64,000 nt of DNA from Leucobacter zeae. Lineage in GTDB: Bacteria; Actinomycetota; Actinomycetes; Actinomycetales; Microbacteriaceae. This document shows, piece after piece, positions 7,033 to 26,400 of the stretch. The notes beneath the pieces are model-generated. The model made no database searches and was not told the origin of the DNA. It worked only from the letters and a program-made list of their open reading frames with translations. Location of the stretch: positions 186,001 to 250,000 of the forward strand of contig NZ_QYAB01000002.1 in assembly GCF_016758175.1 (NCBI RefSeq), written 5' to 3'. The translations under genes were made by a program, and so were the position numbers. Positions within the stretch are counted from its first letter, which is position 1, and each line of letters begins with the position of its first letter.

Positions 7033-7055
7033 GGCGGCTCCTCATCTGCTGGGTC

Positions 7056-10228: not shown

Positions 10229-10298
10229 CCGGCCCACTACTGGCCCGTCGAGACGGCATCGGGGCGGATGCCGTCTCGACGGGCCAGTAGTGGGCCGG
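10229..10298. repeat. Perfect 32-bp hairpin, GGCATCGGG family (copy 2)
   Basis: Arms 10229-10260 and 10267-10298 are perfect complements over 32 bp with a 6-nt loop GGGGCG. Compared with the hairpin at 2694-2755 the arm sequence differs at several positions and every change is compensated on the other arm, while the GGCATC-GGG centre is kept. GGTGCGATGC-type low-complexity sequence precedes it (about 10189-10220), as at the first copy. It lies downstream of the gene ending at 10342 and upstream of the promoter at 10125, so it may also end transcription. Confidence 0.8.
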
Positions 10299-10341
10299 TG
10301 CCCTGCGGGGTGTCGGCCGGAGCCCGGTGCGGCCTTCCGGT

Positions 10342-11358: not shown

Positions 11359-11376
11359 CTGCTCGCCTCCTGTGGG

Positions 11377-11396
11377 GTGTGACATGGTATGGTCCA
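11377..11396. promoter_or_regulatory. Operator-like sequence in the divergent racemase/exporter promoter region
   Basis: The 58-bp gap between the divergent starts holds GTGTGACAT (11377-11385), identical to half of the palindrome at 10133-10148, followed by TGGTATGGTCCA (11385-11396, TGG-N6-CCA). This suggests control by the same GntR protein. For the plus-strand gene a -10-like TAGCAT (11405-11410) lies 6 nt before the ATG at 11417, the spacing expected of a leaderless transcript. Confidence 0.4.
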
Positions 11397-11416
11397 ATGC
11401 CGAGTAGCATAGCGGC

Positions 11417-12301
11417 ATGCAGGGTGGCAGCGGAACGCGCGGGGGAGCGTGGTTCGTGCTCGCCGCCGCAGTGCTCTGGGGGACGACCGGCACCGCGGCG
11501 ACCTTCGCACCGCACGCGGGGCCGATCGCGATCGGATCGGCGGCGATGGGGATCGGGGGCCTGCTGCAGGCGCTCGTCGCGATCCGCCCCCTGCTTCGGG
11601 ACGCCGCGCTGCTGCGCGCGCGTCCGGGCGTTCTCGCGCTCGGCGCGGTGTCGGTCGCGGTGTACCCGCTGGCGTTCTACGCGGGCATGCACCTCGCCGG
11701 CGTTGCGGTGGGAACGGTGGTCGCCCTCGCCTCCGGCCCGATCTTCGCGGCCGTGCTCGAACGCGCGATCGACGGAGTCCCGCTCGATCGGCGCTGGGTG
11801 ACCAGCGCGGCGTTCGGTATCGCGGGTACGGTGCTGCTCAGCGCCGACGGCGCCGCTGGCGGCGGCGGCCAGGGGCCGCTCGGGATCGCACTGGCGCTCG
11901 TCGCCGGCGCCTCCTACGCGCTCTACACCTGGGCCGCGCGCCGACTCATGAACGCCGGAGCCGGCTCGCGCTCGGCGATGGGTGCGGTGTTCGGCATCGG
12001 AGGGCTCCTGCTCGTGCCGGTGCTCGTCGTGACCGGGGGCCCGTTCCTCTCCGATGCGCGCGATCTGGCGGTCGGCGGCTACATGGCGATCGTGCCCATG
12101 TTCCTCGGCTATCTGTGGTTCGGCGCCGGCCTGCGCACCGTGGCGGCGCGCACGGCCACCGTGCTGACCCTCGCCGAGCCCGCGGTCGCAGCACTGCTCG
12201 CCTGGGCCGTCGTCGGGGAGCGGCTCGGGGTGCTCGGACTGTGCGGGATCGGTCTGATCGGCGCCTCGCTCGCCGTGCTCTCGCTGCCGCGTCGCGCCTG
12301 A
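11417..12301 (+). CDS. EamA/DMT-family transporter
   Basis: 294-residue membrane protein with about ten hydrophobic segments in two EamA repeats (repeat 1 about residues 8-140, repeat 2 about 150-290). Typical features are LAAAVLWGTTGTAATFAP at the start and the second-repeat segment ALVAGASYALYTWAARRL, plus AEPAVAALLAWAVVGERL near the end. Drug/metabolite exporters of this family often export amino acids; the divergent position beside the racemase suggests an amino acid or a derivative, an inference only. TAGCAT 6 nt before the ATG suggests leaderless translation. Confidence 0.85.
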   Translation: MQGGSGTRGGAWFVLAAAVLWGTTGTAATFAPHAGPIAIGSAAMGIGGLLQALVAIRPLLRDAALLRARPGVLALGAVSVAVYPLAFYAGMHLAGVAVGTVVALASGPIFAAVLERAIDGVPLDRRWVTSAAFGIAGTVLLSADGAAGGGGQGPLGIALALVAGASYALYTWAARRLMNAGAGSRSAMGAVFGIGGLLLVPVLVVTGGPFLSDARDLAVGGYMAIVPMFLGYLWFGAGLRTVAARTATVLTLAEPAVAALLAWAVVGERLGVLGLCGIGLIGASLAVLSLPRRA

Positions 12302-12492: not shown

Positions 12493-12521
12493 TTGCCATG
12501 TAAAACATTCATATGTAAGTT
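12493..12521 (+). promoter_or_regulatory. Promoter with shared AAAACATTCAT spacer (copy A)
   Basis: -35-like TTGCCA (12493-12498) and -10-like TAAGTT (12516-12521) are 17 bp apart. The spacer contains TAAAACATTCAT and is strikingly AT-rich for this genome. The P450 promoter at 16980-17008 has the same arrangement and the same 12-mer in the same place, so both probably bind one regulator. It drives the permease gene 76 bp downstream. Confidence 0.55.
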
Positions 12522-12596
12522 GTAATCAGTCTTCCCGGTGCTGAAGTCTTCCGGGAGGCGATCAACGGCTGATGTACGAGGGAGTACTGAGCGACT

Positions 12597-14099
12597 ATGA
12601 CAGAGCACAACGACGTCGTGGAGCACGACGAGGACGCGGCGCATCTCGCCTCCCTCGGCTACTCCTACGACACGACCTTCAAGCGAGAGATGAGCTTCTG
12701 GGGCAACGTCTCTCTCGGATTCACCTATCTCTCACCGATCGCAGGGGTCTACTCGATGTTCGCGATCTCCCTCGGGCAGGCGGGACCGCCCATGGCCTGG
12801 GCGCTCGTCATCGCGCTCGTCGGACAGTTCTTCGTGGCGCTGGTCTTCGGAGAGGTCGTCTCGAACTATCCGGTCGCAGGCGGGGTCTACCCGTGGTCCC
12901 GGCGACTCTGGGGCCGCAAGTGGGCCTGGATGAACGGGTGGATCTACGTGGTCGCGCTCGTCGGAACGATCGCGGCGGTCGCCTACGGGGCCTCGCCGTT
13001 CGTGGCCTCGATCTTCGGCGGGGTGCTCGACTCCGGCGGTATCGTGCTCATCGCGTTGGGCACGCTGGTCGTGGCAACGATCCTGAACTTCTCGGGAACC
13101 CGGGTCCTGAGCCTGGCCGCGACCGTCGGGCTGATCGCGGAGATGATCGGTGCCGTCGTCATCGGGGGATACCTCCTGCTGTTCGGGCGCCAGCACGACC
13201 TGTCGGTGCTGTTCGACAACCAGGGCATCGGCAACGATGCGCCGGGAGGGTATCTCGGGGCGTTCGCGGCCGCCGCGCTCATCGGCATGTTCGCCTACTA
13301 CGGCTTCGAAGCGAACGGCGATGTCGCGGAGGAGATCAAGAATCCCAGCGTGCGCGTGCCGAAGGCGATGCGCATGACGCTCTACATCGGCGGTTTCGCG
13401 GCGAACCTGCTCGTGTTCTCGCTCGTGCTGGCCGTGCCCGACTTCCAGGCCGTCGCGAGCGGCGAGGTCTCCGATCCGATCGGGGAGCTGCTCCACGAGG
13501 CCTTCGGACCCATCTTCCCGATCGTGATGTTCGTCATCGTCGTCGCATTCATCTCGTGCATCACGAGCCTCCAGGCCGCGGCGAGCCGCCTCATCTACTC
13601 GATGGGACGAGACGGGTTCCTGCCCGCGTCGCAGTTCCTTTCCGCGTTCAACGAGAAGCGCCACGTCCCGCACAACGCGCTCCTGGCGGCGGCCTGCTTC
13701 CCCGCTGCGGTCATCGTGCTCTCGCTGCTACTGGAGGACGCGCTGACGGCAATGGTCGGGTTCGGCACCGTCGGCATCTACATCGGGTTCCAGATGGTCG
13801 TCCTGGCCGCTCTGCGCGCCCGGTTCCTCGGCTGGCGGCCCGCAGGCAAGTTCCGCCTCGGCTCCTGGGCGTACCTCGTCAACATCATCGCCCTCGTCTG
13901 GGGCGTCGCCGCGGTCGTCAACATCATCTGGCCGCGACCGACCGGGGGCGGGTGGGCCGAGGACTACCTCCTCGTCATGACGACTGTCGGCGTGATCGCC
14001 TTCGGCTGGATCTACATGCTCGTCTCGAAGGCGTACCGCCGCGGAGACGCGCCGGCCGCCGACGCGAGCGGTCCGATCCGGATCGGGTCCGTGCAGTGA
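12597..14099 (+). CDS. APC-superfamily amino acid/amine permease
   Basis: 500 residues, about 12 hydrophobic segments, APC superfamily. The first helix carries the substrate motif region SLGFTYLSPIAGVYSMFAISL; later blocks include VAGGVYPWSRRLWG and a glycyl/aromatic loop FAYYGFEANGDVAEEIKNP typical of amine and GABA-type permeases. Uptake of an amine or amino acid is expected. It heads the 12.5-23.4 kb region and shares its promoter design with the P450 operon, so its substrate is probably the compound that region degrades. The gene ends in a 17-bp tandem repeat that contains its own stop codon. Confidence 0.87.
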   Translation: MTEHNDVVEHDEDAAHLASLGYSYDTTFKREMSFWGNVSLGFTYLSPIAGVYSMFAISLGQAGPPMAWALVIALVGQFFVALVFGEVVSNYPVAGGVYPWSRRLWGRKWAWMNGWIYVVALVGTIAAVAYGASPFVASIFGGVLDSGGIVLIALGTLVVATILNFSGTRVLSLAATVGLIAEMIGAVVIGGYLLLFGRQHDLSVLFDNQGIGNDAPGGYLGAFAAAALIGMFAYYGFEANGDVAEEIKNPSVRVPKAMRMTLYIGGFAANLLVFSLVLAVPDFQAVASGEVSDPIGELLHEAFGPIFPIVMFVIVVAFISCITSLQAAASRLIYSMGRDGFLPASQFLSAFNEKRHVPHNALLAAACFPAAVIVLSLLLEDALTAMVGFGTVGIYIGFQMVVLAALRARFLGWRPAGKFRLGSWAYLVNIIALVWGVAAVVNIIWPRPTGGGWAEDYLLVMTTVGVIAFGWIYMLVSKAYRRGDAPAADASGPIRIGSVQ

Positions 14100-14134
14100 T
14101 CCGCCCCGTGCAGTGATCCGCTCCGTGCAGTAGC
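14091..14134 (+). repeat. 17-bp tandem repeat spanning the permease stop codon
   Basis: The unit CCGTGCAGTGATCCGCY occurs twice in full and a third time in part (ending CCGTGCAGTAG). The first unit contains the last codons and the stop of the permease gene; each further unit repeats GTG-CAG-stop. It looks like a slippage or duplication event at the gene end. Confidence 0.7.
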
Positions 14135-14155
14135 GGGGCGGGCGCCCCTCCCACC

Positions 14156-14193
14156 CGGTGCCGGGCTGCCGATCGATCGGCAGCCCGGCACCG
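14156..14193. terminator. 38-nt perfect palindrome between permease and hydrolase genes
   Basis: A perfect 19-bp dyad centred on GATCGATC (arms starting CGGTGCCGGGCTGCC). It lies 57 bp after the permease stop and ends 20 bp before the next ATG, close to its ribosome site, so it could be a terminator or a structure affecting translation of the hydrolase gene. Confidence 0.55.
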
Positions 14194-14213
14194 ATCCGTC
14201 GAAAGGACACCGA

Positions 14214-14999
14214 ATGACCGACTTCCGCGTCGACCCAACCCCATTCCTCGATCATGCGGGGGAGGAACCGGATGGCCCGATCATCCCGATGGTGGTCTCG
14301 CTGACGTTCCCGGGGATGGACCGCGCCGCGCACGCGCTGCAGGACGAGTTCACGCGGATCGCCTTCTCGGCGGTCCGAGCCGCCGGCGGTCGCCCGAGGC
14401 TCGTCGATTCCGCGGCCGGCCCGGAACCGCTCGGAGGCGTCGCGGCGGCGCTCGACGGCGCCCGCGGTGTGATCATGCTCGGCGGAGGGGACGTGGACGG
14501 CGCCTGCTACGACCGGCAGGGGCCGCCGCCCGAGAACGAGTACGGCGTGGACCGGCGGGCCGATGAGTTCTGCATCGGAGTGATCCGCGAGGCCGTGGCG
14601 AGGGACCTGCCGACCCTCGCGATCTGCCGGGGGTCGCAACTGCTCAACGTGGCGTTCGGCGGCACGCTGATCCCCGACATCGCCGCCTGGGAGACCCATC
14701 GCGGCGACGGCGATCCGCTGTTCATCGATGAGGAAGTGGTCCTCGAGCCGGGATCGAGGATCGCGGCGGTCCTCGGCCGCGAGCACGTCGTCGTGCGCAA
14801 CGGCCACCATCAGGCGGTGGGCGAAGTCGCGCCGGCGCTGCGGGCGACCGCGCGGGCGCGCGACGGGATCGTCGAGGGCACCGAGCACCGGGAAGCCGGC
14901 TGGGTCGTCGGCGTCCAGTGGCATCCCGAGGAGCCGCAGGCCGACGCGCGCGACCGCGCTCGGATCTTCGCGGCGCTCGTCTCCCGCGCCGCCGGATAG
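14214..14999 (+). CDS. Gamma-glutamyl-amine hydrolase (PuuD-like, class I glutamine amidotransferase fold)
   Basis: 261 residues, peptidase C26 family. The nucleophile is Cys138 in LAICRGSQLLNVAFGGTL, and the His/Glu pair is in VGVQWHPEEPQ. The N-terminal block IIPMVVSLTF and the oxyanion segment IMLGGGDVDGACY also fit PuuD, which cleaves gamma-glutamyl-GABA to glutamate and GABA. It is one of three amidotransferase-fold hydrolases in the region (also 20498 and 21229). Together with the ligase at 18331 it suggests a cycle of gamma-glutamylation and release around amine oxidation. GAAAGGAC provides the ribosome site. It is convergent with the flavodoxin gene. Confidence 0.86.
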   Translation: MTDFRVDPTPFLDHAGEEPDGPIIPMVVSLTFPGMDRAAHALQDEFTRIAFSAVRAAGGRPRLVDSAAGPEPLGGVAAALDGARGVIMLGGGDVDGACYDRQGPPPENEYGVDRRADEFCIGVIREAVARDLPTLAICRGSQLLNVAFGGTLIPDIAAWETHRGDGDPLFIDEEVVLEPGSRIAAVLGREHVVVRNGHHQAVGEVAPALRATARARDGIVEGTEHREAGWVVGVQWHPEEPQADARDRARIFAALVSRAAG

Positions 15000-15003
15000 G
15001 GGC

Positions 15004-15041
15004 GGACGCCCGCGCCGCCAGGCAAGGCGGCGCGGGCGTCC
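15004..15041. terminator. Bidirectional terminator hairpin
   Basis: A perfect 16-bp stem (15004-15019 with 15026-15041) around AGGCAA. It sits between two convergent stop codons (14999 and 15057). Confidence 0.75.
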
Positions 15042-15056
15042 AATCCCGTGCCCGGC

Positions 15057-15515
15057 TCAGACCGGCGCGGCAGCCGCCTCCAGGACGCGGGGGAGCCACT
15101 CGAGCGCCGCGTCGCTGCCGATCGTCCACGACGAGGCGTCGTGGCGGCCGTACTCCCCGATGCGCTCGGCGCCCTGCGCGGCCAGGCGGCGGTCGATGTG
15201 CTCGCTGCCCTGGCTGTACGTCTCCTCGTAGAAGGTGTCGCCGAGACCGAACATCGCATATCGCACCCCCGAGAGGTCGGGCTGCACGGCATCGAACGCC
15301 TCTGCGAACGGGGCCGCGGAGAGCGGAAGGTCGCCCTCGCCGTGCGTCGAGCACACGATCAGGTAGAACCGATCGGGGTCGAAGGACATCGGGTCGGTGT
15401 CCTGCAGATCGGCGACCTCGACGTCGTCGTGCTGCTCGCGGAGCGCCTCGGCGAGGTCTTCGGAGATGAGCTCCGCATTGCCCGATTCGGTGCCGTAGAG
15501 GACGGTGAATTTCAT
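15057..15515 (-). CDS. Flavodoxin (MioC-like), probable P450 electron donor
   Basis: 152 residues. The FMN phosphate loop is visible at the N-terminus (FTVLYGTESGNAELISEDLA), the 50s loop in CSTHGEGDLP, and the 90s region in YAMFGLGDTFYEETYSQG. The start at 15515 (MKFTVLYG) follows AGAAAGGA at good spacing. It is 22 bp downstream of, and co-transcribed with, the ferredoxin/flavodoxin reductase at 15538. A stand-alone flavodoxin with a dedicated reductase, divergent from a P450, matches the cindoxin/P450cin arrangement and the split equivalent of XplA, in which a flavodoxin domain is fused to the P450. Partner assignment is inferred from context. Confidence 0.88.
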   Translation of the reverse strand: MKFTVLYGTESGNAELISEDLAEALREQHDDVEVADLQDTDPMSFDPDRFYLIVCSTHGEGDLPLSAAPFAEAFDAVQPDLSGVRYAMFGLGDTFYEETYSQGSEHIDRRLAAQGAERIGEYGRHDASSWTIGSDAALEWLPRVLEAAAAPV

Positions 15516-15537
15516 GGGGTTCCTTTCTGCTGATCGA

Positions 15538-16839
15538 TCATCGATCGGTGTGCGCTGCGCCACGGGCGATGATCGCCATGCGCGAGTGGTCGGGGTGCTT
15601 CCTGCGCGCTCGGGCCGGGGTCGCGATCTTCCGCTCGTGCGCCTCGAGCACCAGCCACTGCTCGAAATCGATCGCGCGGGCGAGGACTTCGGGCGGAAGC
15701 CCGGTGAAACCCGACCGATCGGCGACGACCGGGAGCGAACCGTCGGCGAGGTCGGAGGCGATCTCGTCCGAGACGAGCCGGGCGTACCCGCGGTTCTCGG
15801 GAATGGCCCCGCGGGGGCCGCGCTGCGCCCATCCCGTGCGGTAGAGGCCCGTCTCGATGCGTCCGCTCGCGGAATCCGGGCCGAGCGCCGCGATCAGCGA
15901 GGAGAGCGCGTCGGCGGCGGGGTCGAAGCCGATCGCCGAGACGACAGCGGTCGCCGGGACGACGGCGACCGCGTCGCCGCGCGCCAGTTCCACGCCCTCG
16001 ACCGCCCCGGATCCGAGGATCCGGACCGGGGTCCAGCCGAAGCGGAGCGAGACATCGGGCCCCGGGGCGCTCGGTCGGTCGGCCGCGGTGAGGGCCGCGA
16101 CGGCGTCGACTCGGGCCGCGGCGGTGCGATCGAGCTCGCAGTCGACCCCCGGCTCGGGCTCCGCGGAGTCGACGCACCGGTACGTCGCCCGGGGGAGCTG
16201 CGCGAGCTCGCGCAGCATCTGCGGATCGCCCTTCGAGGCAGGGAGAGCGGAGCGGCTGACGAGGGTCACCCGGTGCGCGGGGGCGGCGAGGTAGGAGTCG
16301 AGGGCGGTGTCGGACACGTCGCTGCCGTCGTAATCGTCCGGGCCCTTCACGAGGAAGCGGAGCACGTCGAGCGCCACGTTGCCCGCCCCAACGACGACCA
16401 CGTCGGAACCGAGTTCGGGAAGCCGCTCGGGGGAGTCGGGGTGCGCGTTGAGCGCTCGGATGATCGCACCGGCGCCGTGGACGCCGTCGAGGTCGGAGCC
16501 GGGGATGCCGAGCCCGCGGTCGCGTGTCAGTCCGGTCGCGAGTACGACCGCGTCGAAGCAGGCGCGCAGCTCGTCGAGCGAGACGTCGCGGCCGACCTCG
16601 ACGTTGCCGACGAAGCGGACGCCCGGGTGCGCGAAGAGCCGGTCGAACTGGCGCGAGATCGCCTTGGTGTGCTGGTGATCGGCGGCGATCCCGTACCGGA
16701 CGAGGCCGTAGGGGGAGACCAGCCGGTCGAGCATGGCGATCTCGCACTCGGGGATCGACCTGAGCAGGGCCTGCGCGAGATAGCAGCCCGACGGGCCGCT
16801 CCCCACGATGGCGATCTTCGGCGTCCGAGTATCGGTCAT
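15538..16839 (-). CDS. Adrenodoxin-reductase-type NADPH:ferredoxin/flavodoxin reductase
   Basis: 433 residues, FprA/adrenodoxin reductase family. The FAD motif IAIVGSGPSGCYLAQALL starts at residue ~9, followed by LVSPYGLVRYGIAADHQHTK, the FAD-binding LATGLTRDRGLGIPG, and the NADPH Rossmann motif VVVGAGNVALDVLRFL (about residue 150). The C-terminal motif TGWAQRGPRGAIPENR is diagnostic. It transfers electrons from NADPH to the flavodoxin encoded next. XplB, the reductase of the RDX-degrading P450 XplA, belongs to the same family. It is divergent from the P450, and the AT-rich gap 16840-17060 contains both promoters. Confidence 0.92.
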   Translation of the reverse strand: MTDTRTPKIAIVGSGPSGCYLAQALLRSIPECEIAMLDRLVSPYGLVRYGIAADHQHTKAISRQFDRLFAHPGVRFVGNVEVGRDVSLDELRACFDAVVLATGLTRDRGLGIPGSDLDGVHGAGAIIRALNAHPDSPERLPELGSDVVVVGAGNVALDVLRFLVKGPDDYDGSDVSDTALDSYLAAPAHRVTLVSRSALPASKGDPQMLRELAQLPRATYRCVDSAEPEPGVDCELDRTAAARVDAVAALTAADRPSAPGPDVSLRFGWTPVRILGSGAVEGVELARGDAVAVVPATAVVSAIGFDPAADALSSLIAALGPDSASGRIETGLYRTGWAQRGPRGAIPENRGYARLVSDEIASDLADGSLPVVADRSGFTGLPPEVLARAIDFEQWLVLEAHERKIATPARARRKHPDHSRMAIIARGAAHTDR

Positions 16840-16979
16840 CGCTGCTCCTTCGCGAGTTCGGGCGATTCCGGCGCAGCTGCGGTGCGCGCCGGTCGGGCAC
16901 CAGTGTATCGTTAAAAGTCGTTCTGTGAATGATTAATTCTTCAGTTTGACGATACTCCGGGTCAAATCCTTTTTAGCTA

Positions 16980-17008
16980 TTGAGTATTAAAACATTCATG
17001 AGTAACTT
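16980..17008 (+). promoter_or_regulatory. P450 operon promoter with shared AAAACATTCAT spacer (copy B)
   Basis: -35-like TTGAGT (16980-16985), 17-bp spacer, -10-like TAACTT (17003-17008). The spacer contains TAAAACATTCAT, identical over 12 bp and in the same register as the permease promoter at 12493-12521. A further inverted repeat, GTATCG...CGATAC, brackets the upstream AT-rich segment (about 16906-16953) and may belong to the divergent reductase promoter. Confidence 0.6.
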
Positions 17009-17060
17009 ATTTACTGTCGGAACCGATTGCGGACCGACCCCGTTCGACGAAGGAGTACGA

Positions 17061-18284
17061 ATGACGGAACAGGCGGGATCGGCGACGATTCCATACCTCG
17101 ACATCTCATCGCCGGAGTTCGCGATGAATTCCGAGGCCGTGCGCGATGCGCGCAGCCGCAGCTGGTACGCCGAGACGAACTACGGCATCGGCGTGCTCCG
17201 CTACGCGGAGGTCACGGCGCTGCTCAAGCACGCGAGCCTCAACCAGGGCAGCGCGAAGTGGCCGGACCACCACGGGGTGCACTCGGGGGTCTTCTACGAC
17301 TGGTGGACCCGGAACCTCCTCGTGCTCGAGGGCGACGAGCACGACCGCATCCGGCGCCTGCTGAACCCCGCGTTCTCGCCGCTCATGGCGCGTCGCCTCG
17401 AACCCGAGTTCCGCGCACTCGCGGAAGAGCTGATCGCCGGCATGCTCGACAAGCGGGAACGCGGCGAGTCGATCGAGTTCGTCGCCGACTTCTCCGAACC
17501 GTTCGCGACCCGCGCGCTCTGCGCCATGATGGGCCTGCCGCACGAGCACTGGCCGTTCATCGCCTCCCGTGCGAATACGGTCGGGCATGCGCTGAGCGTC
17601 ACGATCAAGGAGGACATCGAGCGCGTCGACCACGCCGTCCACGAGCTCTACGAGTTCGTGGAGAAGCTCATCGAGGAGCGTCGCGAGCGCCCCGGGGACG
17701 ACATGGTCTCGACGCTCCTGCAGGCATCACTCCAGGACGGGGACGCGCTGAGCGGCGAAGAGCTCAGGAACGCGCTCGTGCTCATGCTGTTCGGCGGCAT
17801 GGACACGACTCGCAACCAGCTCGGTCTGCTGCTCCAGACGTTCATGCGACATCCCGATCAGTGGGACGCGCTCGCCGCCGACCCGGAGCGCCTCACGCGG
17901 CCGGCGCTCGAGGAGGGCCTGCGCGTGAACCCGACGACGCGGTGGGTGACTCGCGAGGCGAACGAGGACTTCGAGTTCAACGGTCTGCGGATCGCGAAGG
18001 GCACGACGGTGCACCTCTTCACGATGTCGAGCGGCACGGACCCCGAGGCCTACCCGGATCCCGAGATCGACATCCACGTGCCGAGCCGGAAGCAGCACCA
18101 CACCTTCGGCGGAGGCGTGCACAAGTGCATCGGGCACTACATCGCCCGCGCCGACATGAGCGTTGCGCTGCCGTTGCTCGCGCAGGCCATCACCGACGTG
18201 AGGTGCCCCGGAGGGGACGAGTGGCTCCCCGATTCAGGGAACCACGGCCCGATCCGACTTCCGATCGAGTTCTCCGTCCGCTGA
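17061..18284 (+). CDS. Cytochrome P450
   Basis: 407-residue soluble bacterial P450. The oxygen-activation motif is GGMDTTRN (about residues 244-251), the ExxR motif EGLR is at about 285, and the heme loop FGGGVHKCIG has its ligand at Cys356. The start at 17061 follows AGGAG at ideal spacing; the frame is open upstream to 16980, but that ATG overlaps the predicted -35 box. It heads an operon with the glutamine-synthetase-like gene (46 bp gap). P450 genes beside glutamine-synthetase-like genes are known from morpholine/piperidine degraders and RDX degraders, so hydroxylation of a (cyclic) amine or its gamma-glutamyl derivative is proposed. The substrate is unknown. Confidence 0.93.
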   Translation: MTEQAGSATIPYLDISSPEFAMNSEAVRDARSRSWYAETNYGIGVLRYAEVTALLKHASLNQGSAKWPDHHGVHSGVFYDWWTRNLLVLEGDEHDRIRRLLNPAFSPLMARRLEPEFRALAEELIAGMLDKRERGESIEFVADFSEPFATRALCAMMGLPHEHWPFIASRANTVGHALSVTIKEDIERVDHAVHELYEFVEKLIEERRERPGDDMVSTLLQASLQDGDALSGEELRNALVLMLFGGMDTTRNQLGLLLQTFMRHPDQWDALAADPERLTRPALEEGLRVNPTTRWVTREANEDFEFNGLRIAKGTTVHLFTMSSGTDPEAYPDPEIDIHVPSRKQHHTFGGGVHKCIGHYIARADMSVALPLLAQAITDVRCPGGDEWLPDSGNHGPIRLPIEFSVR

Positions 18285-18330
18285 CCCCGCTGCATCGCCC
18301 CGTACCTTCCAACGACGAAAGGATCCACCC

Positions 18331-19761
18331 ATGTCTGATCTCTCCACCGGCGGGAGCTTCGGCGCCGCGCTGCGCGAGATCCTCGACGACGATTCCGCGT
18401 TCTCGCGGCACCGCGAGGAGAATCTGCGCCCCGAGGCGCTCGCGGCGCTCGGCGAGCGCATCCGCGAGACCGGCGTCAGATACATCTACTACATGGTGCC
18501 CACGCTCGGCAGCCGCACGATCGCGAAGGTCGTGCCAGCCGAGCACTTCGAGCGCATGCTCGGCAAGGGCATCGCGTTCCACCGCACCGCGCTCACCGAC
18601 CTGCAGACGAGCCGAGAGGGCGAGCTCATCGGAGGCGGCGTCGATGCGCACGAGTTCTGGGGGCTTCCGGACCCCGAGACGTTCCAGGTGCTGCCCTGGG
18701 ACCCCGAAGTCGGCCGGATGTTCTGCCGCGCCTACGACCCGCCGCACCTCGCAGGCGGGGGCCGCCTGATCCCGCTCGACACCCGCGCCCTCTTCATCGC
18801 GGCGCACCGCGCGTTCACGGAGCGGACCGGGCTCGAACTGCGGAGCGGTCTCGAACCCGAGATGACCTGGGTCGGTCCCGGGATCGAAGTCGTCTCGAAG
18901 ACGGACCAGAGCCCCGCCTACCAGGTGGAGAACCTCGAGAAGATGCGACCCGTCTACAAGAAGGTCATCAGCTATTCCCAGGCGCTCGACTTCACCATGA
19001 TCCAGGGCGACTACGAGGACGACGGTCAGATCGAGCTGAACTGGGAGTACGACCGCGCAGAGCGCACTGCGGAGCGCATGACGACCTACCGGCAGGTGTG
19101 CAAGCAGGTCGCCCGCGAGCTCGGCCTGCAGGCGAGCTTCATGGCGAAGCCCTCCAACGGGAGGATGGGCAACGGCTGCCACCACAACCTCAGTCTCTGG
19201 CGGATCGGTTCCGACGGCGAGACGAACGTGGTCGAGGACGGCCGGGTCGAGCTCCACGCCACGGAGACGGCACGCAACGCGATCGCGGGCATGCTGCTGC
19301 ACACCCCGGGCTCCATGCTCGTCATGGCGTCGACCGTCAACTCCTACAAGCGATTCTGGGATGCGGGCCAGTTCGCGCCGTCCGGCGCCGACTGGGGGCT
19401 CGACACGCGCGGCGTGGCGATCAGGATCTCGGCGAACGGGCGCATGGAGTACCGGCTCCCCGATGCCAGTGTGAACCCCTACCTGTCGCATCTCTATCTG
19501 CTCGCGGCGATCGAGCACGGCCTCGAGGCCGAGCTCGACCCGGGAGACCCCGGCGCACCGACCGAGGCGATCCGCGCGGGAGTCGTCCCGAACACGCTGG
19601 GCGCGGCGATCGACGCCTTCGAAGCCGACGAGTACCTCATGGGTGCGATGCCGGAGGAGTTGACACGCATCTATCTGCAGCTGAAGCGCGACGAATGGGC
19701 GCGCTACTGCGGTCAGATCACCCAGTGGGAGTTTGATCAGTACTGGGAGGCGATCCCGTGA
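18331..19761 (+). CDS. Glutamine-synthetase-like gamma-glutamyl-amine ligase (PuuA/GlnA type)
   Basis: 476 residues with the whole GSI catalytic core: Glu cluster in GLEPEMTW (about residue 173), DDGQIELNWEYD (about 230), the ATP/Glu-binding segment KPSNGRMGNGCHHNLSLW (about 273-290), TVNSYKRFWDAGQFAP (about 330) and RMEYRLPDASVNPYLSHL (about 370). The adenylylation-type NLYDLP motif of true GlnA is not seen. The family makes gamma-glutamyl amides from glutamate, ATP and an amine; true ammonia assimilation is unlikely next to a P450 and gamma-glutamyl hydrolases. AAAGGA precedes the start; the stop overlaps the next gene by 4 bp (GTGA). Confidence 0.9.
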   Translation: MSDLSTGGSFGAALREILDDDSAFSRHREENLRPEALAALGERIRETGVRYIYYMVPTLGSRTIAKVVPAEHFERMLGKGIAFHRTALTDLQTSREGELIGGGVDAHEFWGLPDPETFQVLPWDPEVGRMFCRAYDPPHLAGGGRLIPLDTRALFIAAHRAFTERTGLELRSGLEPEMTWVGPGIEVVSKTDQSPAYQVENLEKMRPVYKKVISYSQALDFTMIQGDYEDDGQIELNWEYDRAERTAERMTTYRQVCKQVARELGLQASFMAKPSNGRMGNGCHHNLSLWRIGSDGETNVVEDGRVELHATETARNAIAGMLLHTPGSMLVMASTVNSYKRFWDAGQFAPSGADWGLDTRGVAIRISANGRMEYRLPDASVNPYLSHLYLLAAIEHGLEAELDPGDPGAPTEAIRAGVVPNTLGAAIDAFEADEYLMGAMPEELTRIYLQLKRDEWARYCGQITQWEFDQYWEAIP

Positions 19762-20495
19762 GCGAGCGCACCGACTCCCGGATCCGTACGATCCGCCTCG
19801 CCTGCATCGACTCCGAGGCGCTCCCGCTCTTCGCGAAGAGCGCTGACGGGCGGACGCGAACCGGGTACGAGCCCGAAGCGGCGGAGCTCGTGCTCTCCCG
19901 GTTCCCGGGAGGCCCCGCCACCGTCGAATGGGTGATGCTGCCGTGGGAGGACATGATTCCCGCGGTCAGACGGGGCGATGCCGATGCGGTGTGGTGCGGA
20001 CAGGGGATGACGCCCGAGCGCGCGGCGCTCGTCGACTTCACCTCCCCGTACGCGGTGTTCAACGAGACCCTCGTCGTGCGGGCCGACGACCCCGCGCGCG
20101 CAGCGGATCAGCTCACGGGCTACCGCATCGGCGCCATCGCGAACTCGACGAACATGCGGCTCGCGGAGACGTTCCCCGGCGTCGATCTCGTGAGCTTCGG
20201 AGCGAGCGACGACGTCTTCGGCGACATGATCGAGGCGACCCGTTCGGGTGAGATCGACGGCTTCGTGGACGACGATGTCGTGATGATCCCGCTCGGACAG
20301 GAGGACCCCGACTTCGTCGAAGCGTTCACGGTGCAGACCGGGAACCGCTGGGGGGTCGGCGTGGCCCCCGGCGCGGACGCGTTGCGCGCCGAGTTCGACG
20401 CTGCGCTGGCCGAGACCGTAGCGGACGGATCGCTCGCAGCAGTCTGGCGGAGATGGATGCCGCTGCTGCCGTTCCCCCTGCAGACGGGAGCTTGA
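19758..20495 (+). CDS. Family 3 solute-binding-protein fold without signal peptide
   Basis: 245 residues with the two-lobe SBP_bac_3 pattern: RLACIDSEALPLFAK, GYEPEAAELVL, DAVWCGQGMTPERAALVDFT, then the hinge segment YRIGAIANSTNMRLAE and WGVGVAPGADALRAEFDAAL. The N-terminus MSERTDSRIRTIRLACI is charged, with no hydrophobic stretch or lipobox, so the protein should stay in the cytoplasm. No permease or ATPase gene accompanies it. It is translationally coupled to the ligase (GTGA overlap), so it more likely binds or processes a pathway compound, or acts as a small-molecule sensor, than serves transport. The start is GTG at 19758. Confidence 0.8.
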   Translation: MSERTDSRIRTIRLACIDSEALPLFAKSADGRTRTGYEPEAAELVLSRFPGGPATVEWVMLPWEDMIPAVRRGDADAVWCGQGMTPERAALVDFTSPYAVFNETLVVRADDPARAADQLTGYRIGAIANSTNMRLAETFPGVDLVSFGASDDVFGDMIEATRSGEIDGFVDDDVVMIPLGQEDPDFVEAFTVQTGNRWGVGVAPGADALRAEFDAALAETVADGSLAAVWRRWMPLLPFPLQTGA

Positions 20496-20497
20496 CC

Positions 20498-21232
20498 GTG
20501 GAGCCTGCGGAATTCGCTGGAGGGACGCCGCGCATCGGCGTCACCGGAATGCATACGAATCAGGTGCACGGGCTCCGGTTCGACGGAAGCGCCGTGGCGG
20601 CCGCGGTGCTCCGCTCCGTGGTCAGGGCTGGCGGCGAACCGCTCGCGCTCTTCGCCGAGAGCGCGCTCTCCGCGGAGGAGCGGCTGGCGGGCCTGGACGG
20701 ACTGCTCGTGCCGGGAGGCGCCGATGTCGACCCCGCTCGCTACGGGCACACGCGGCACGAACGCACGGAGACCGCCGACTTCGACGAGCAGGACGCGTTC
20801 GAGGCCGACATGATCTCCGCGGCGCTGGCGGTCGGGGTACCGGTGCTCGCGATCTGCCGCGGGTTCCAGCTGCTGAACGTCGAGCACGGCGGGACGCTCG
20901 TGCAGGACCTGCCGCAGGACAGTCCGCACCGCGACGGCGTTCACGATGTCGAACTCGTGCCAGGGTCCGCGATCGCCCGAGCGCTGGGAGCGGCCCGCAT
21001 ACCGGTGTCGTCCTACCACCACCAGGCGGTCGACCGCCTCGGCACGGGTCTCATCGCCGTCGGGCGTGCACCAGACGGGACGGTGGAGGCGATCGAGCTT
21101 CCGACGGCTCCGCTCATCGCGGTGCAGTGGCATCCTGAGGACAACGCCGCGGAGGACCCGCGTCAGCAGATGCTCTTCGACTGGCTCGTCGAACGGGCGC
21201 GGGCGACCCGCGGGATGAGGTCGGCCGCATGA
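20498..21232 (+). CDS. Second gamma-glutamyl-amine hydrolase (PuuD-like)
   Basis: 244 residues. Nucleophile Cys120 in LAICRGFQLLNVEHGGTLVQ, His/Glu in IAVQWHPED, and the loop LVPGGADVDPARYG all fit the gamma-glutamyl-GABA hydrolase family. GTG at 20498 was preferred over an in-frame TTG at 20492 because the GGGAG sequence lies at a workable 7 nt only from the GTG. It sits 2 bp after the binding-protein-like gene and overlaps the next gene by 4 bp. It differs clearly from the copy at 14214, suggesting a different gamma-glutamyl intermediate. Confidence 0.85.
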   Translation: MEPAEFAGGTPRIGVTGMHTNQVHGLRFDGSAVAAAVLRSVVRAGGEPLALFAESALSAEERLAGLDGLLVPGGADVDPARYGHTRHERTETADFDEQDAFEADMISAALAVGVPVLAICRGFQLLNVEHGGTLVQDLPQDSPHRDGVHDVELVPGSAIARALGAARIPVSSYHHQAVDRLGTGLIAVGRAPDGTVEAIELPTAPLIAVQWHPEDNAAEDPRQQMLFDWLVERARATRGMRSAA

Positions 21233-22047
21233 GCGGCCGCGTGCTCGTGGTCGAGCATCAGGCCGATGCCGGACTCGGCCTGATGCGCGAGCGGCTCGAG
21301 GCTGCCGGCGCGACCGTCCTCGTGACGGGACCGGAGGCCGCGGTCGCCGTTCCCGCATCCCTCGAGGGCTACGACGGCCTCATCGTGCTCGGCGGGTCCA
21401 TGGGGCCGACCGATGATGCCGACGCTCCATGGCTGCCGCGCGTCCGAGATCTGCTGAGCGCTGCAGTCGGGCGCGGGCTTCCGACGCTCGGCGTCTGCCT
21501 CGGTGCTCAACTCCTCGCCGTCGCCGCAGGCGGGGAGGTTGCCGAGATGCCCGAGGGGCCCGAGATCGGGGCGTGCCGGGTGACGTTCTCCGCCGCGGCA
21601 GCGGGGGACCCGCTCTTCGATGGGCTCGCCTCCACGACGGTTCCCGTGCTGCAGTGGCACTGGCTCGAGATCCGCGAGCTGCCCGCCGGTGCGCGGACGC
21701 TCGCTGCCAGCGGCGCCTGCGCGAACCAGGCCTACCGGCTCGGCACTGCCGCCTGGGGGGTGCAGTTCCATCCCGAAGCGCTCTCCGCGACCGCGCGAGC
21801 ATGGGCGGAGGAGGATCGCCAGGGGCTCTCGGAGCTCGGACTCGATGGAGCTGAGGTCGTCGACGGAGCGATCGACGTCGAACCCGAACTCCGGCGCACC
21901 TGGGGCGATGTCGCGCAACGCTTCGCGGAGCTGGTGCTCGCCGCCGCCGCGCTCGATCAGCCGGAGACGGCGTGGAGCAGTTCCACTCCCGCCGACTCCG
22001 GCCCGAGCCGCAGCCTCGAGAAGCCGTCGAGCGGATCGGGTGCGTAG
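21229..22047 (+). CDS. Class I glutamine amidotransferase-like protein (GMP synthase subgroup)
   Basis: 272 residues. The amidotransferase triad is visible as Cys90 in LGVCLGAQLLAVAAGGEV and WGVQFHPEAL; LIVLGGSMGPTDD is the conserved oxyanion strand. This is the stand-alone GuaA-N-like group, often annotated as glutamine amidotransferase of unknown substrate. It is the last gene of the P450 operon and the third amidotransferase-fold protein there. Its last 91 bp overlap, on the opposite strand, the end of the Cache-domain gene; the C-terminal ~30 residues (SSSTPADSGPSRSLEKPSSG) look like non-conserved tail. Confidence 0.83.
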   Translation: MSGRVLVVEHQADAGLGLMRERLEAAGATVLVTGPEAAVAVPASLEGYDGLIVLGGSMGPTDDADAPWLPRVRDLLSAAVGRGLPTLGVCLGAQLLAVAAGGEVAEMPEGPEIGACRVTFSAAAAGDPLFDGLASTTVPVLQWHWLEIRELPAGARTLAASGACANQAYRLGTAAWGVQFHPEALSATARAWAEEDRQGLSELGLDGAEVVDGAIDVEPELRRTWGDVAQRFAELVLAAAALDQPETAWSSSTPADSGPSRSLEKPSSGSGA

Positions 22048-22667
22048 GCGCCGGTGACGAACCTCGAGGAGTTGGAGACGAGCACGTTGCCGCGCCGTCC
22101 GATGATCGCGAGTTCCGCGGCGCTCGTGAGCATCAGCGGGAGCAGCGCCGATTCGAGATCTTCGAGCTGGATGTCGTTGCCGACCGCCCCGATGCGCCGG
22201 CCGTCGAGATCGGCGGGAACGGTGAGCGTGAGCACGTATGCCTCGACCCCGAGGTAGTCGATGTACGGCCCGACGAGGGACGGGGTCCCCTCGTTGAACG
22301 CCCGGACGAACCACTCGTGCTGCTCGTAGTCGTAGTAGCGGTCGCCGCCGGGAACGACCCCGAACGAATATCGGGCGAACCGGGTATCGTCTTCGCGCAC
22401 CCACCACTCGAGGTGGCCGTTCTCAGTGCCGAGCGCGGTGTGCGCGAAGATGAGACCGCAGCCGTCGATGGCGTCGTTGCCCGCGAGGTACCGGCCGGCG
22501 GTGGACTTCATCCGCCGTCGAGCCGCCTCGGAGAGCACGATCCGTCCGTCCTCGGCGTGCAGGTTGCCGACGAGTTCGGCACCGAGCGCCTCGAGGCGCG
22601 CGAAACGCTCCGAGAACCAGGTCGAGAGCATCTCGCCGATCTCCTCAGCCGACCGTTGCCGGGTCAT
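21957..22667 (-). CDS. Soluble Cache (PDC)-domain protein
   Basis: 236 residues, a single extracellular-sensor-type Cache fold with no transmembrane helix, signal peptide or output domain. The ligand-pocket blocks are recognisable: YYDYEQHEWFVRAFNEG, then GPYIDYLGVEAYVLTLTVP and GAVGNDIQLEDLESALL. In chemoreceptors and kinases this fold binds amino acids or amines; here it would act inside the cell. Start at 22667 overlaps the GntR stop by 4 bp, so regulator and sensor are made together. A co-sensor for the GntR protein or an amine-binding protein are possible roles, both inferred. Confidence 0.78.
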   Translation of the reverse strand: MTRQRSAEEIGEMLSTWFSERFARLEALGAELVGNLHAEDGRIVLSEAARRRMKSTAGRYLAGNDAIDGCGLIFAHTALGTENGHLEWWVREDDTRFARYSFGVVPGGDRYYDYEQHEWFVRAFNEGTPSLVGPYIDYLGVEAYVLTLTVPADLDGRRIGAVGNDIQLEDLESALLPLMLTSAAELAIIGRRGNVLVSNSSRFVTGAYAPDPLDGFSRLRLGPESAGVELLHAVSG

Positions 22668-23446
22668 TTCGCGGCTCCGTTCTCGCGGGACGCGGATTCC
22701 GTCGCGAGGGCCTCCCGGTGCAGGCGGAGCTTCCCGTCGATGATGAGGCGCATGTTCCCTTCCACGTGGGCGACGGCGAGTCGCTGCGCCGTCGTACCGT
22801 CTCGCTGCTCGATCGCCATGACCATCGCGAGGTGCTCGGAGAAGGCCAGGGACCCCGAGGCGCGACTGATCTCCTCGCACCAGAGGAATGGCGAGAGCTC
22901 GGATTGCAGGCGCTGCTCCGAAGCGAGCAGACGCGGCGACTGACTCAACACGGCGATCTCGAAGTGGAAACGGCTGTCGCCGAGGGAGCGGTCGTGCACG
23001 GTCCGGGCGTCCCGCGCGAGGAAGGCGAACTCGGCCAGTCGGGTCCGCATGCCCGGGGGAGTGCGTTCCGCGGCGAGGCGCGCCGCCGTGCCGGAGACCG
23101 CAGCCTGCTCGTCGAAGAAGTCTCGAAGAGCGACGGCGCTCGTACGCCGCAGCGCGGAGACGAGCATCTCAGATGTCGGGAACGGCGATTGCACGACGAA
23201 GGTGCCGCCATTGCGGCCGCGCCGGGTCTCGACGATTCCCTGCGCGCGCAGGGATGCGAGGGCCTTCCGAAGCGTGGCGACCGCGACTCCGAACTGGCCG
23301 GCGAGTTCTGCTTCCGTCGGCAGGCGCTCGCCGACGCTCAGCATGCCGAGAGAGATCGCCGTGGCGATCCGCTGGGCGATTCCTCCGACCTGCGTTCCCG
23401 AGAGCTCGGAATCGCGCGCGGAGGAATCGCCCGGGGTCGGATGCAC
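22664..23446 (-). CDS. GntR-family (FCD) regulator of the P450/amine region
   Basis: 260 residues. The HTH (about residues 20-90) reads GGIAQRIATAISLGMLSVG, then LPTEAELAGQFGVAVATLRKALASLRAQGIVETRRG; the C-terminal all-helical FCD-type ligand domain has H in DSRFHFEIAVLS and in VAHVEGNMRLI. The gene begins only 7 bp after the stop of kgd on the same strand, with no clear ribosome site, so read-through from kgd or its own cryptic promoter are both possible. It is coupled to the Cache-domain gene. Regulation of the 12.5-22 kb genes, perhaps through the AAAACATTCAT promoters, is inferred from location. Confidence 0.85.
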   Translation of the reverse strand: MHPTPGDSSARDSELSGTQVGGIAQRIATAISLGMLSVGERLPTEAELAGQFGVAVATLRKALASLRAQGIVETRRGRNGGTFVVQSPFPTSEMLVSALRRTSAVALRDFFDEQAAVSGTAARLAAERTPPGMRTRLAEFAFLARDARTVHDRSLGDSRFHFEIAVLSQSPRLLASEQRLQSELSPFLWCEEISRASGSLAFSEHLAMVMAIEQRDGTTAQRLAVAHVEGNMRLIIDGKLRLHREALATESASRENGAAK

Positions 23447-23453
23447 GGCGCGA

Positions 23454-26400
23454 CTACGCTGCGTCGAAGCCGATGGCCCGTGAGATCAGGGCCTCCTGCT
23501 CGACGGCGTGGATCTTCGCCGAGCCGGTCGACGGCGCCGCCGATGCCGGGCGCGAGACGACGCGGATGCGATCGTTCGCGAGGTGCTTCGACAGCTCGAG
23601 CGAGATGAACGGCCAGGCGCCCTGGTTCTCCGGCTCGTCCTGCACCCAGACGAGTTCCGCGCCGGGGTACTGCGCGAGCACGCGCCCCATCTGCGGGGCG
23701 GGGATCGGGTAGAACTGCTCGACGCGCACGATGGCGACGCGCGGATCGGGGTGCTTCTCGAGCGCCGCGCGCAGGTCGTAGTAGATCTTGCCCGAGACGA
23801 GGAGCACCCGCTCGACGCCCGACCGGTCCTCGATCGTCGGGTCGTCGATCACCGGCTGGAAACTGCCCTGCGTGAACTCGGAGACATCGGAGGTCGCGCC
23901 TCGCAGACGGAGCATCTGCTTCGGGGTGAAGACGATGAGCGGCTTGCGCGGGCGGGCGTACGCCTGGCGGCGCAGCAGGTGGAAGTAGTTCGCGGGCGTC
24001 GACGGGCGGGCGACGATCATGTTGTCCTCGGCGCACAGCTGCAGGTAGCGCTCGATGCGGGCGGAGGAGTGGTCAGGACCCTGGCCCTCGTAGCCGTGCG
24101 GCAGCAGCATGACCACGGAGGACTGCTGGCCCCACTTCTGCTCGGCGGCGGCGATGTACTCGTCGATGACGGCCTGCGCGGTGTTCGCGAAATCGCCGAA
24201 CTGCGCCTCCCATAGCACGAGGGCGTCCTCGCGCTGCAGCGAGTAGCCGTACTCGTACGCGAGGGCCGCGTACTCCGAGAGCAGCGAGTCGTAGATCCAG
24301 AAGCGCGCCTGATCCTCGGAGAGGTTCAGCAGCGGGATCCATTCCTGCCCGTTCTTCCGATCGTGGAAGACGGCGTGACGCTGGGCGAACGTGCCTCGCC
24401 TGGCGTCCTGCCCGGCGAAACGGACGGCCGTGCCCTCCATGAGCAGCGACCCGAGCGCGAGCAGCTCGCCGAAGCCCCAGTCGATCCCGCCCTCGCGACT
24501 CATCTCGACGCGCTTGTTCAACAGCTGCTGGAGCTTCTGGTGCACCGTGAAGCCCTCGGGCTTGTTGCCGAACGCGTCGCCGATGCGCTCGATGGCGCTG
24601 CGGTCGACCGCGGTCTCGATCGGGGCGGACTCGGGGCCGCCCGCCTCGGCGACCTCGCCGATCCCGCTCGTGTCGATGATCGGGATCGATCCCGTCTGCG
24701 CCGCGTGCGTCTCCATGAAGGCGCGCTCGAGGCGGGACTGGAAGTCCTGCTTCGCGCGCTCGTACTCCTCCTCGGTGATGTCGCCGCGGCCGACGAGCGC
24801 GCTCGTGTAGAGGCGGCGGGCCGACCGCTTGGCCTCGATGAGGTCGAACATGAGCGGCTGCGTCATCGACGCGTCATCGCCCTCGTTGTGGCCGCGGCGC
24901 CGGTAGCACACGAGATCGATGATGACGTCGATGTGGAACCGCTGACGGAACTCGTACGCGAGCTTCGCGACGCGCACGATCGATTCGGGGTCGTCGCCGT
25001 TCACGTGGAAGATCGGCGCCTGCACGACCTTGCCCACGTCGGACGGGTAGACCGCCGAGCGCGAGTCGAGCGGCAGGGTGGTGAAGCCGACCTGGTTGTT
25101 GATGATGATGTGGATCGTGCCGCCGGTGCGGTAGCCGCGCAGCTGCGACATCTGCAGGGTCTCGTAGACGACGCCCTGGCCCGCCATCGCGGCGTCGCCG
25201 TGGATGATGATCGGCAGCGTCGTGAACGAGCCGATGGGCTTCAGATCCTGCTTCGCGCGGACGATGCCCTCGAGCACGCCGTTCACGGTCTCGAGGTGCG
25301 ACGGGTTCGCCGCGAGGTGGATCGGGACCTGCGTGCCGTTCGGCGCGGTGAAGACGCCCGACGTCCCGAGATGGTACTTGACGTCGCCCGAGCCGGTCTT
25401 CGAGGTCTGCGCCCCCTCGAACTCGCGGAAGATCTGCCCGTAAGTCTTGCCCGCGATGTTCGAGAGCACGTTCAGGCGGCCGCGGTGCGCCATGCCGATG
25501 TCGACGCTGTCGACCCCGTCCTCCGCCGCATCGATGAGCATCGCGTCGAGCAGCGGGATCACGCCCTCGCCGCCCTCGAGGCTGAATCGCTTCTGGCCGA
25601 CGTACTTCGTCTGCAGGAAGGTCTCGAAGGCCTCGGCCTCGTTGAGACCCTCGAGGATGCGCATCTGCTCGTCATGGCTGGGCTTCGCGTAGCGCACCTC
25701 GAGCTGGTCTCGCAGCCAGAGGCGCTGCGCCGGGTCCTGGATGTGCATGTACTCGACGCCGATCTTGCGGCAGTACGAATCGCGGAGCACGCCGAGGATG
25801 TCGCGCAGCTTCATGGAGCGCTCGCCGCCGATGCCGTCGGTCACGAACTCCCGGTCGAGGTCCCAGAAGGTGAGGCCGTGCGATTCGATCTCGAGGTCGG
25901 GGTGCGTGCGCTGCACGTACTCGAGCGGGTCGACGTCGGCCATGAGATGACCGCGCACGCGGAAGGAGTTGATGAGCTCCTGCACGCGCGCGGTCTTGTC
26001 GACAGCTCCCGAGATGTCCACGTGGATGTCGGAGGCCCACTGGATCGGCTTGTACGGGATGCGCAGGGCCGCGAAGACCTGCTCGTAGAAGTCGTGACCG
26101 CCGGTCAGGCGCTCGTGCACCATCTTCAGGAACTCGCCCGAGCCGGCTCCCTGGATGACGCGGTGGTCGTAGGTGCTCGTGAGCGTGATGGTCTTCGAGA
26201 TGCCGAGCTTGGTCAGCACGTCCTGGGACGCGCCCTGGAACTCCGCGGGGTACTCGAGGGCGCCGGCGCCGATGATGCAGCCCTGGCCCTGCATGAGGCG
26301 CGGGACCGAATGCACCGTGCCGATGCCGCCGGGGTTCGTGAGCGACATCGTGGTGCCCTGGAAGTCCCCGGCCTCGAGCTTGCCCGCGCGGGCGCGCTTG

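Follow-up and report, generated by a model that had tools for sequence, protein, structure and literature searches.

The window analysed here, 64,000 nucleotides of Leucobacter zeae contig NZ_QYAB01000002.1, carries an actinobacterial gene set that probably breaks down ring-shaped amines, with a cytochrome P450, a glutamine synthetase (GS)-like ligase and a stand-alone flavodoxin. An earlier note, made from the letters of the DNA, had named the genes of this cluster, and all of them were found where it placed them, as intact reading frames (Table 1). The genes for the flavodoxin (Fld) and an adrenodoxin reductase-like protein (AdR) occupy the minus strand and point away from the P450 gene, which is followed on its own strand by the genes for the GS-like ligase, a protein with the fold of solute-binding proteins (SBP), a Peptidase_C26 hydrolase and a class-I glutamine amidotransferase (GATase)-fold hydrolase. 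The genes for a Cache-domain protein and an FCD-type GntR regulator are located directly downstream of Kgd on the minus strand, with 7 bases between Kgd and GntR. Direct reading showed the heme-loop, ExxR and I-helix motifs in the P450 sequence and the phosphate loop in that of the flavodoxin. Two of the three amidotransferase-fold hydrolases announced in the note are Peptidase_C26 proteins; the third is of the GATase type by its best model scores (PRK07053-like), and reaches 126.6 bits against NF005458, below the cut-off of 250.

Table 1. Genes of the cluster, adjoining gene and promoter motifs, in window coordinates
Feature	Position	Strand	Evidence
APC-family permease, amine or amino-acid type	12597..14099	+	PF13520 2.6e-46; TIGR03428 below cut-off
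C26 hydrolase 1 (C26a), probable gamma-glutamyl amide hydrolase	14214..14999	+	PF07722 1.4e-42, above its cut-off
Stand-alone flavodoxin (Fld), 152 aa	15057..15515	-	PF00258 1.8e-26
Adrenodoxin reductase/FprA-type FAD reductase (AdR)	15538..16839	-	best solved relatives adrenodoxin reductase 2.8e-46, FprA 9.7e-44
Cytochrome P450, PipA/MorA (CYP151) type	17061..18284	+	PF00067 1.2e-28
GS-like gamma-glutamyl amine ligase (GmaS/GoaS-like)	18331..19761	+	best solved relatives 7cql, 9qur
SBP_bac_3-fold protein without signal peptide	19758..20495	+	family profile match; no hydrophobic N-terminus
C26 hydrolase 2 (C26b), probable gamma-glutamyl amide hydrolase	20453..21232	+	PF07722 7.8e-52, above its cut-off
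Class-I GATase-fold hydrolase	21229..22047	+	PF00117 3e-20
Cache/PDC-domain protein beside the regulator	21957..22667	-	MCP-like_PDC_1 1.2e-07, above cut-off; dCache_1 below cut-off
FCD-type GntR regulator (PipR-like)	22664..23446	-	PF00392, PF07729
Kgd	23454-27257	-	adjoins GntR
Promoter motif TAAAACATTCA upstream of the permease	12501..12511	+	motif scan, up to 2 mismatches
Promoter motif facing the AdR-flavodoxin genes	16926..16936	-	2 mismatches; kept in the aligned intergenic regions of the genus
Promoter motif facing the P450 operon	16988..16998	+	exact match

The P450 gene (called at E <= 1e-50) and the GS-like gene (E <= 1e-150) are present in exactly the same 19 of 37 genomes of the genus. 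The gene block is syntenic across the loci of 18 further genomes of the genus, some of them on short contigs. The genes for GS, SBP, C26b, GATase and AdR were found in all 18, Fld in 17 (the remaining contig stops inside AdR), C26a as a separate gene in 17, Cache and GntR in 16 each, and the permease in 15. Since the partner genes are kept across these loci, the arrangement is not due to chance. Among named genomes, a search with seven aligned P450s returned 386 relatives, and the analysis used the 80 that ranked highest by match to the P450 of plasmid pGKT2, so that this sample is skewed to ferredoxin-type clusters and apparently includes none from genomes named for the family of the window. 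Counted within each locus stretch, GS occurs in 75 of these 80 loci, SBP in 69, GntR in 67, Cache in 66, the permease in 64 and C26 in 62, and all six partner types occur together in 58; where GS is missing (five loci), the locus is shorter than 7 kb in three cases. Because GS and the full set of six are this frequent, homologues of the P450 do not occur mainly without the GS and hydrolase genes, and the linkage proposed earlier stands. Aldehyde dehydrogenase-family ORFs are present in 45 of the 80 loci and class-III aminotransferase-family ORFs in 24 (these counts, and those of DmmA-like genes below, refer to BLAST clusters with one member each checked against Pfam); such enzymes would be required by a Puu-like route that leads to an omega-amino acid and on to a semialdehyde. 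In the family set of 398 genomes the P450 was called in 30 (E <= 1e-90), and GS lies within 1.5 kb of it in 24 of these 30 loci. One other locus (L131) has its GS further downstream, visible in the wider stretch L172. Five without GS within 1.5 kb (L142-L146) hold the most distant family P450 matches (45-50%), and no GS was found in the wider stretches (L167, L168 and L171) of three of them (L142, L145 and L146).

The P450 is 52% identical to that of Paracoccus TOH, 50.1% to the pGKT2 P450 and 48.6-62.8% to 75 ferredoxin-type relatives. P450s more than 40% identical belong to the same sequence family, here presumably CYP151, a placement made through the pGKT2 P450 and the ferredoxin-type relatives. 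PipA-type clusters act on piperidine and pyrrolidine, and MorA acts on morpholine, as reported in PMC9477822 and PMC2018728. The window shares with them the P450 type, the adjacent GS-like and GntR genes, and the permease, C26, binding-protein and Cache genes seen in Mycolicibacterium and other sister loci, but it has AdR and flavodoxin in place of the ferredoxin and ferredoxin reductase cited for MorA (PMC9477822). By its gene content, then, the cluster is a chromosomal member of the widespread PipA/MorA-type (CYP151) kind with a changed redox module. This revises the claim of a new pathway, as a flavodoxin-fed P450 has a precedent in P450cin (PMC9687028) and a similar Gulosibacter cluster has been published (PMC9477822).

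The redox genes vary among these clusters. A ferredoxin match was found in 61 of the 80 named loci, a PdR match in 51, both in 50 and ferredoxin alone in 11; AdR and flavodoxin together were found in none of the 80. Many of 16 sister loci have a ferredoxin of 63-65 aa and/or a reductase of ~416 aa inside the gap between the P450 and GS genes, and in some this gap is too short for either. In the 18 same-genus loci neither ferredoxin nor PdR was detected (18/18), and AdR and flavodoxin are present instead. Nine named loci of Mycolicibacterium or Mycobacterium lack ferredoxin and PdR but have a DmmA-like 2Fe-2S protein, the N-domain of which scores below the Pfam cut-off in the tested member; the gene is ~7 kb away on the opposite strand in three of the nine. 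Two proteobacterial loci, that of Paracoccus TOH (L014) and one from a metagenome-assembled genome (L113), have a flavodoxin-domain match beside the P450 and no AdR, and the L014 protein is annotated as a sulfite reductase flavoprotein. Among the 30 family P450 loci, AdR lies within 1.5 kb in 13 and ferredoxin in 10. All nine AdR-type family loci that were fetched wider carry the flavodoxin, as does the second cluster of genome G406, and in two loci (L165 and L166) the AdR-flavodoxin pair is on the far side of the permease. In this lineage, the usual iron-sulfur carrier of the key enzyme appears to have been replaced by a flavin-based one. Such an electron chain has a precedent, since the nearest solved relative of the flavodoxin is cindoxin (4oxx, 4.2e-24), and it is accompanied here by an FAD reductase. 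P450cin oxidises cineole, and we know of no GS-like or hydrolase genes alongside it. In that system a separate FMN flavodoxin and FAD reductase serve the P450 (PMC9687028), as they probably do in the window.

In a P450 tree of 131 rows, the 31 AdR-flavodoxin-type P450s require a single change; 29 of them form one set at SH-aLRT 100, and all 31 do so only at 54. This tree holds one locus per cluster and omits hits under 250 bits, L121, L169, short family loci refetched wider and the short L139 and L141-L146, several of which are present as wider stretches. A P450 was counted as ferredoxin type if a ferredoxin or PdR match lay within 6.5 kb, and L019 was placed in the flavodoxin type even though its contig stops inside AdR. 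In a flavodoxin tree of 34 rows, 19 of the 21 CYP151-linked rows form one clade (99/97), with L165 and L166 apart. The P450s differ together with their redox genes when the 31 flavodoxin-type are compared with the 75 ferredoxin-type proteins. Position 108 is K/R in 75/75 ferredoxin-type and T/S/G in 26/31 flavodoxin-type P450s, position 116 is R/K in 71/75 and E in 25/31, and position 53 is R/K in 59/75 and E in 25/31; the window P450 itself has Ala53, Leu108 and Glu116. The region 86-120, which, as in P450s generally, would contact the redox partner, has a mean charge of +2.37 in the ferredoxin type and -0.19 in the flavodoxin type.

Three matches to TAAAACATTCA with up to two mismatches were found in the 64 kb, where 0.31 are expected, and only one of 100 shuffles reaches three. 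Similar sites facing the P450 and facing AdR are common to the aligned same-genus AdR-P450 intergenic regions, and of 28 related loci searched with a slightly looser form of the motif, 22 have it at the promoter of the P450, of AdR or of both. The GntR protein may bind this shared motif. Its neighbor, the Cache protein, considered as a possible soluble sensor, exceeds 1.6 in a simple transmembrane score in 23 of 95 rows, the value for the window protein being 1.58.

These data bear on whether the flavodoxin and its reductase might serve another enzyme and merely be neighbors of the P450. AdR-flavodoxin pairs are a general kit: they also adjoin other P450s and, on plasmids, occur close to genes for Rieske oxygenases. 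One same-genus genome without the P450 (G009, locus L192) has a pair of the cluster type (AdR 61%, flavodoxin 67%), and the genome of the window holds two further P450-family matches, possible users of the flavodoxin; these points favor that alternative. On the other hand, a flavodoxin of at least 66% identity is present in 18 of the 19 same-genus genomes that bear the P450, the contig of the last one stopping in AdR. The motif shared by the two sides of the divergent promoter, the residue differences in the P450 and the lack of ferredoxin and PdR in the same-genus loci also argue for a functional pair, and service to another enzyme is improbable. In its own genome, the flavodoxin is the only match at E <= 0.001.

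A related cluster comes from Gulosibacter. In G. molinativorax ON4 two P450 clusters are described, the P450s of which are 72%, the reductases 48% and the electron-transfer proteins 69% identical, with genes numbered in the order electron-transfer protein, reductase, P450 and GS (PMC9477822). Genome G406 has two clusters with mutual identities of 73.5, 49.4 and 68.9% for the same proteins, at ~437 and 3234 kb, and a P450-AdR-flavodoxin fusion at ~1072 kb, near the positions implied by ON4 gene numbers 437, 3051 and 1038 (PMC9477822). As both identities and positions match, G406 would be G. molinativorax ON4 or nearly so. Copy 1 of G406 (L155) has the gene order of the window up to a partial Kgd and a P450 80% identical to that of the window. 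It would then correspond to bioI, and its flavodoxin and reductase to cinC and fprA in Table 2 of PMC9477822, the main text of which does not contain the word flavodoxin. During growth on molinate, the bioI P450 and its reductase are reported with log2FC > 6, cinC with 5.85 and fprA with 7.44, and the second copy, pipA, is not significantly induced; molinate is thought to yield azepane (hexamethyleneimine), and hydroxylation of azepane by one of the two ON4 systems has been proposed (PMC9477822). The function of the ON4 clusters is given there as prediction plus expression. The P450, reductase, flavodoxin and GS-like proteins of L155 are 96-99% identical to those of L021, a locus from the genus of the window (G030), which suggests recent transfer between genera.

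The fusion mentioned above is a single chain of ~990-1055 aa with P450, AdR and flavodoxin parts, complete in nine loci (L169:8512-11535, minus strand, and L184-L191). It was matched in 19 of the 398 family genomes, two of the matches being partial, and in that search the genome of the window gave no match. In one locus (L195:2116-5476) the gene is split into two overlapping frames. The P450 part is nearest to 6g71 (1.2e-164), which we take to be CYP1232A24. This would be a self-sufficient P450 layout, and none of the titles and abstract starts listed by one search of open-licence literature showed a natural fusion of the kind.

The solved structures closest to the GS-like protein are those of GmaS (7cql, 3.3e-50) and a glutamate-methylamine ligase (9qur). 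The place of the Glu-flap Glu is taken by Phe348 in 103 of 109 proteins and by Trp in six, and His84 stands near the Asp50 place in 101 of 109, as placed by pairwise alignment with solved relatives. Glu175, Glu177, Glu229, Glu235, His284 and Arg341 are kept in all 109. A ligase without the ammonium-site Asp and the Glu-flap Glu but with an intact catalytic core is what is expected of an amine ligase; GmaS has Trp and Ala at the Glu-flap and Asp50 places and accepts several amines, including dimethylamine (PMC7948447). The C26 hydrolases keep their catalytic residues, as in the Puu pathway: Cys138 91/91, His237 91/91 and Glu239 90/91 among the best hits of C26a, some of which may be the sister C26 gene, and Cys135 85/85, His227 84/85 and Glu229 85/85 for C26b (in alignments that, like those of the SBP below, exclude proteins of odd length). 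Unlike the GmaS/GoaS and Puu enzymes, the window proteins stay below the cut-offs of the NCBIfam models of type III GS, gamma-glutamylputrescine synthetase and PuuD (NF008471, cut-off 266, with 64.7 and 85.2 bits for the two C26 proteins). The kinship with methylamine ligases, and the resemblance of the C26 proteins, below cut-off, to gamma-Glu-GABA hydrolase, would also suit primary or linear amines as substrates (polyamines, methylated or alkyl amines), with the P450 acting as an N-dealkylase. We consider this unlikely, since reports link such P450s or regulators to piperidine, pyrrolidine and morpholine (PMC9477822, PMC2018728), and the related Gulosibacter cluster, if identified correctly, is induced on molinate.

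Gene content and conservation agree with the proposals of uptake, gamma-glutamyl ligation, P450 oxidation with the flavodoxin as likely donor, deglutamylation and control by Cache and GntR. The order of the steps, with glutamylation before oxidation in the earlier note, is unproven. In the aniline and isopropylamine routes, the amine is gamma-glutamylated before it is oxidised. The 1-naphthylamine pathway follows the same order (PMC11335346), and the dimethylamine taken by GmaS is a secondary amine, so that here too the free secondary amine might be gamma-glutamylated and the P450 might then oxidise the gamma-glutamyl amide. This order is conceivable but not the one we favor: free morpholine is cited as being oxidised by MorA and its redox partners (PMC9477822), which favors oxidation first, and ring-opened primary amines are more like the usual substrates of such ligases.

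We therefore regard it as fairly probable that the cluster is a chromosomal system for catabolism of cyclic (secondary) amines, of the PipA/MorA type, with a flavodoxin-fed P450. The amine would be imported by the permease, and electrons would pass from NADPH through the FAD reductase and the stand-alone flavodoxin to the P450. The P450 would hydroxylate the carbon next to the nitrogen, and the resulting hemiaminal would open to an amino aldehyde. The GS-like enzyme would attach a gamma-glutamyl group to the amine, most probably to that of the ring-opened product, which could then no longer recyclise to the imine. The acid would be made by an aldehyde dehydrogenase, encoded outside the window cluster and present in many sister loci, and the C26/GATase hydrolases would release glutamate and the omega-amino acid. 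The FCD-GntR protein, together with the Cache protein, would control the promoters that share the motif. In the ancestor of the clade, a ferredoxin/ferredoxin-reductase pair would have been swapped for the reductase/flavodoxin pair, the P450 surface changing alongside.

Several observations speak against parts of this interpretation. The window cluster has no aldehyde dehydrogenase or aminotransferase gene, and the single Aldedh match among the scanned window proteins (57399-58907) stands in another context. In ON4 the GS of the cluster is read as serving ammonium assimilation (PMC9477822), and the expression data apply to the present cluster only through the presumed identity of G406. A single clade was rejected for the AdR proteins of the 21 CYP151-linked clusters (p-AU 0.00077), and thus the reductase was probably gained or exchanged more than once and the history of the swap is not simple; the residue differences in the P450 could also stem from drift or divergence of the clade. 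A search for a MorB-like ferredoxin in the own genome gave no match, but was run without a positive control. The motif precedes the permease in only 4 of the 28 related loci and is missing altogether from four of them (L158, L159, L160 and L162).

The SBP-fold protein has no counterpart in the steps above. A hydrophobic N-terminus (score at least 2.0) was found in none of 103 rows, and Cys16, Trp58, Trp63, Cys80, Arg88, Asp171, Asp172 and Trp198 are kept in all 103. In fold, the model (pLDDT 90.4) most resembles an ancestral arginine/glutamine-binding protein, and the matches that follow include opine binders. Gamma-glutamyl amides retain the free alpha-amino and alpha-carboxyl groups that amino-acid-binding sites bind. 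Because the Arg and Asp for amino-acid binding are kept and the fold is nearest to binders of amino acids and opines, the protein may handle the gamma-glutamyl intermediate, and its ligand may be a gamma-glutamyl amide. A joint interpretation, which is tentative and less probable than not, would be that cyclic amines are degraded through gamma-glutamylated ring-opened intermediates, with the SBP as their cytoplasmic carrier, sensor or enzyme, and that the P450 was rewired to flavodoxin by a swap of redox genes and of surface charge, in a cluster that is spread over the Actinomycetota and has a variant in some Pseudomonadota.

The adjacent Kgd had been proposed as the point where glutamate or 2-oxoglutarate enters metabolism. 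Kgd is a housekeeping enzyme of the tricarboxylic acid cycle. It lies beside the cluster in 15 of the 18 same-genus loci but, among 13 clusters with GS from other genera for which wider stretches were fetched, in only 2 (L155 and L157), some of these stretches ending early; as a pathway exit it was dropped as positional. Two other regions of the window were noted. One (5087-11493) contains an FAD oxidoreductase, two proline-racemase-family genes and a DHDPS-family gene and resembles hydroxyproline breakdown. The other (50162-61186) has amidohydrolase, aldehyde dehydrogenase and FAA-hydrolase genes, perhaps for histidine and homoprotocatechuate breakdown.

The cluster also has elements in common with the xpl plasmids for degradation of the explosive RDX. 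Plasmid pGKT2 (L013) has, in this order, FCD-GntR, Cache, a CYP151-like P450, a GS-XplB single frame and XplA, and DN22 has a related permease. The GS and XplB parts form one continuous frame (L013:15310-17745), in which the GS match stops at residue 407 of 476. In XplA the flavodoxin is fused to a different P450, whereas the window genes are separate and on opposite strands. The union on pGKT2 of these genes, including a P450 50% identical to that of the window and an AdR-type reductase, might suggest that the window cluster is the direct ancestor of xplA/xplB and its stand-alone flavodoxin the form before fusion. This is most improbable. The nearest relatives of the pGKT2 P450 (L036, 73.0%), the pGKT2 GS (L059, 78.3%) and the DN22 permease (L054, 71.0%) are in other actinobacterial clusters, outside the window type, and the XplA flavodoxin groups with those of Klebsiella, Sinorhizobium and G807 (99/94), outside the window clade in the 34-row tree. 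Descent of xpl from the window cluster was thus not supported by trees or by best-relative identities. As its nearest relatives and its flavodoxin lineage lie elsewhere, xpl appears to have been assembled in parallel from the same kit, as a cousin of the window cluster and not a descendant.

These clusters constitute a natural experiment in the electron supply of P450s, in which one conserved cluster is combined with several redox modules. These are ferredoxin with reductase, reductase with flavodoxin and, so it appears, a DmmA-like 2Fe-2S protein and a diflavin reductase. The joint differences in redox genes and P450 residues within one clade provide candidate residues for partner specificity, a matter of interest for biocatalysis and for the question of how amine clusters were put together into the xpl plasmids that degrade RDX. 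The SBP-fold protein, in turn, is a conserved and unexplained cytoplasmic component of what would be a pathway for industrial ring amines.

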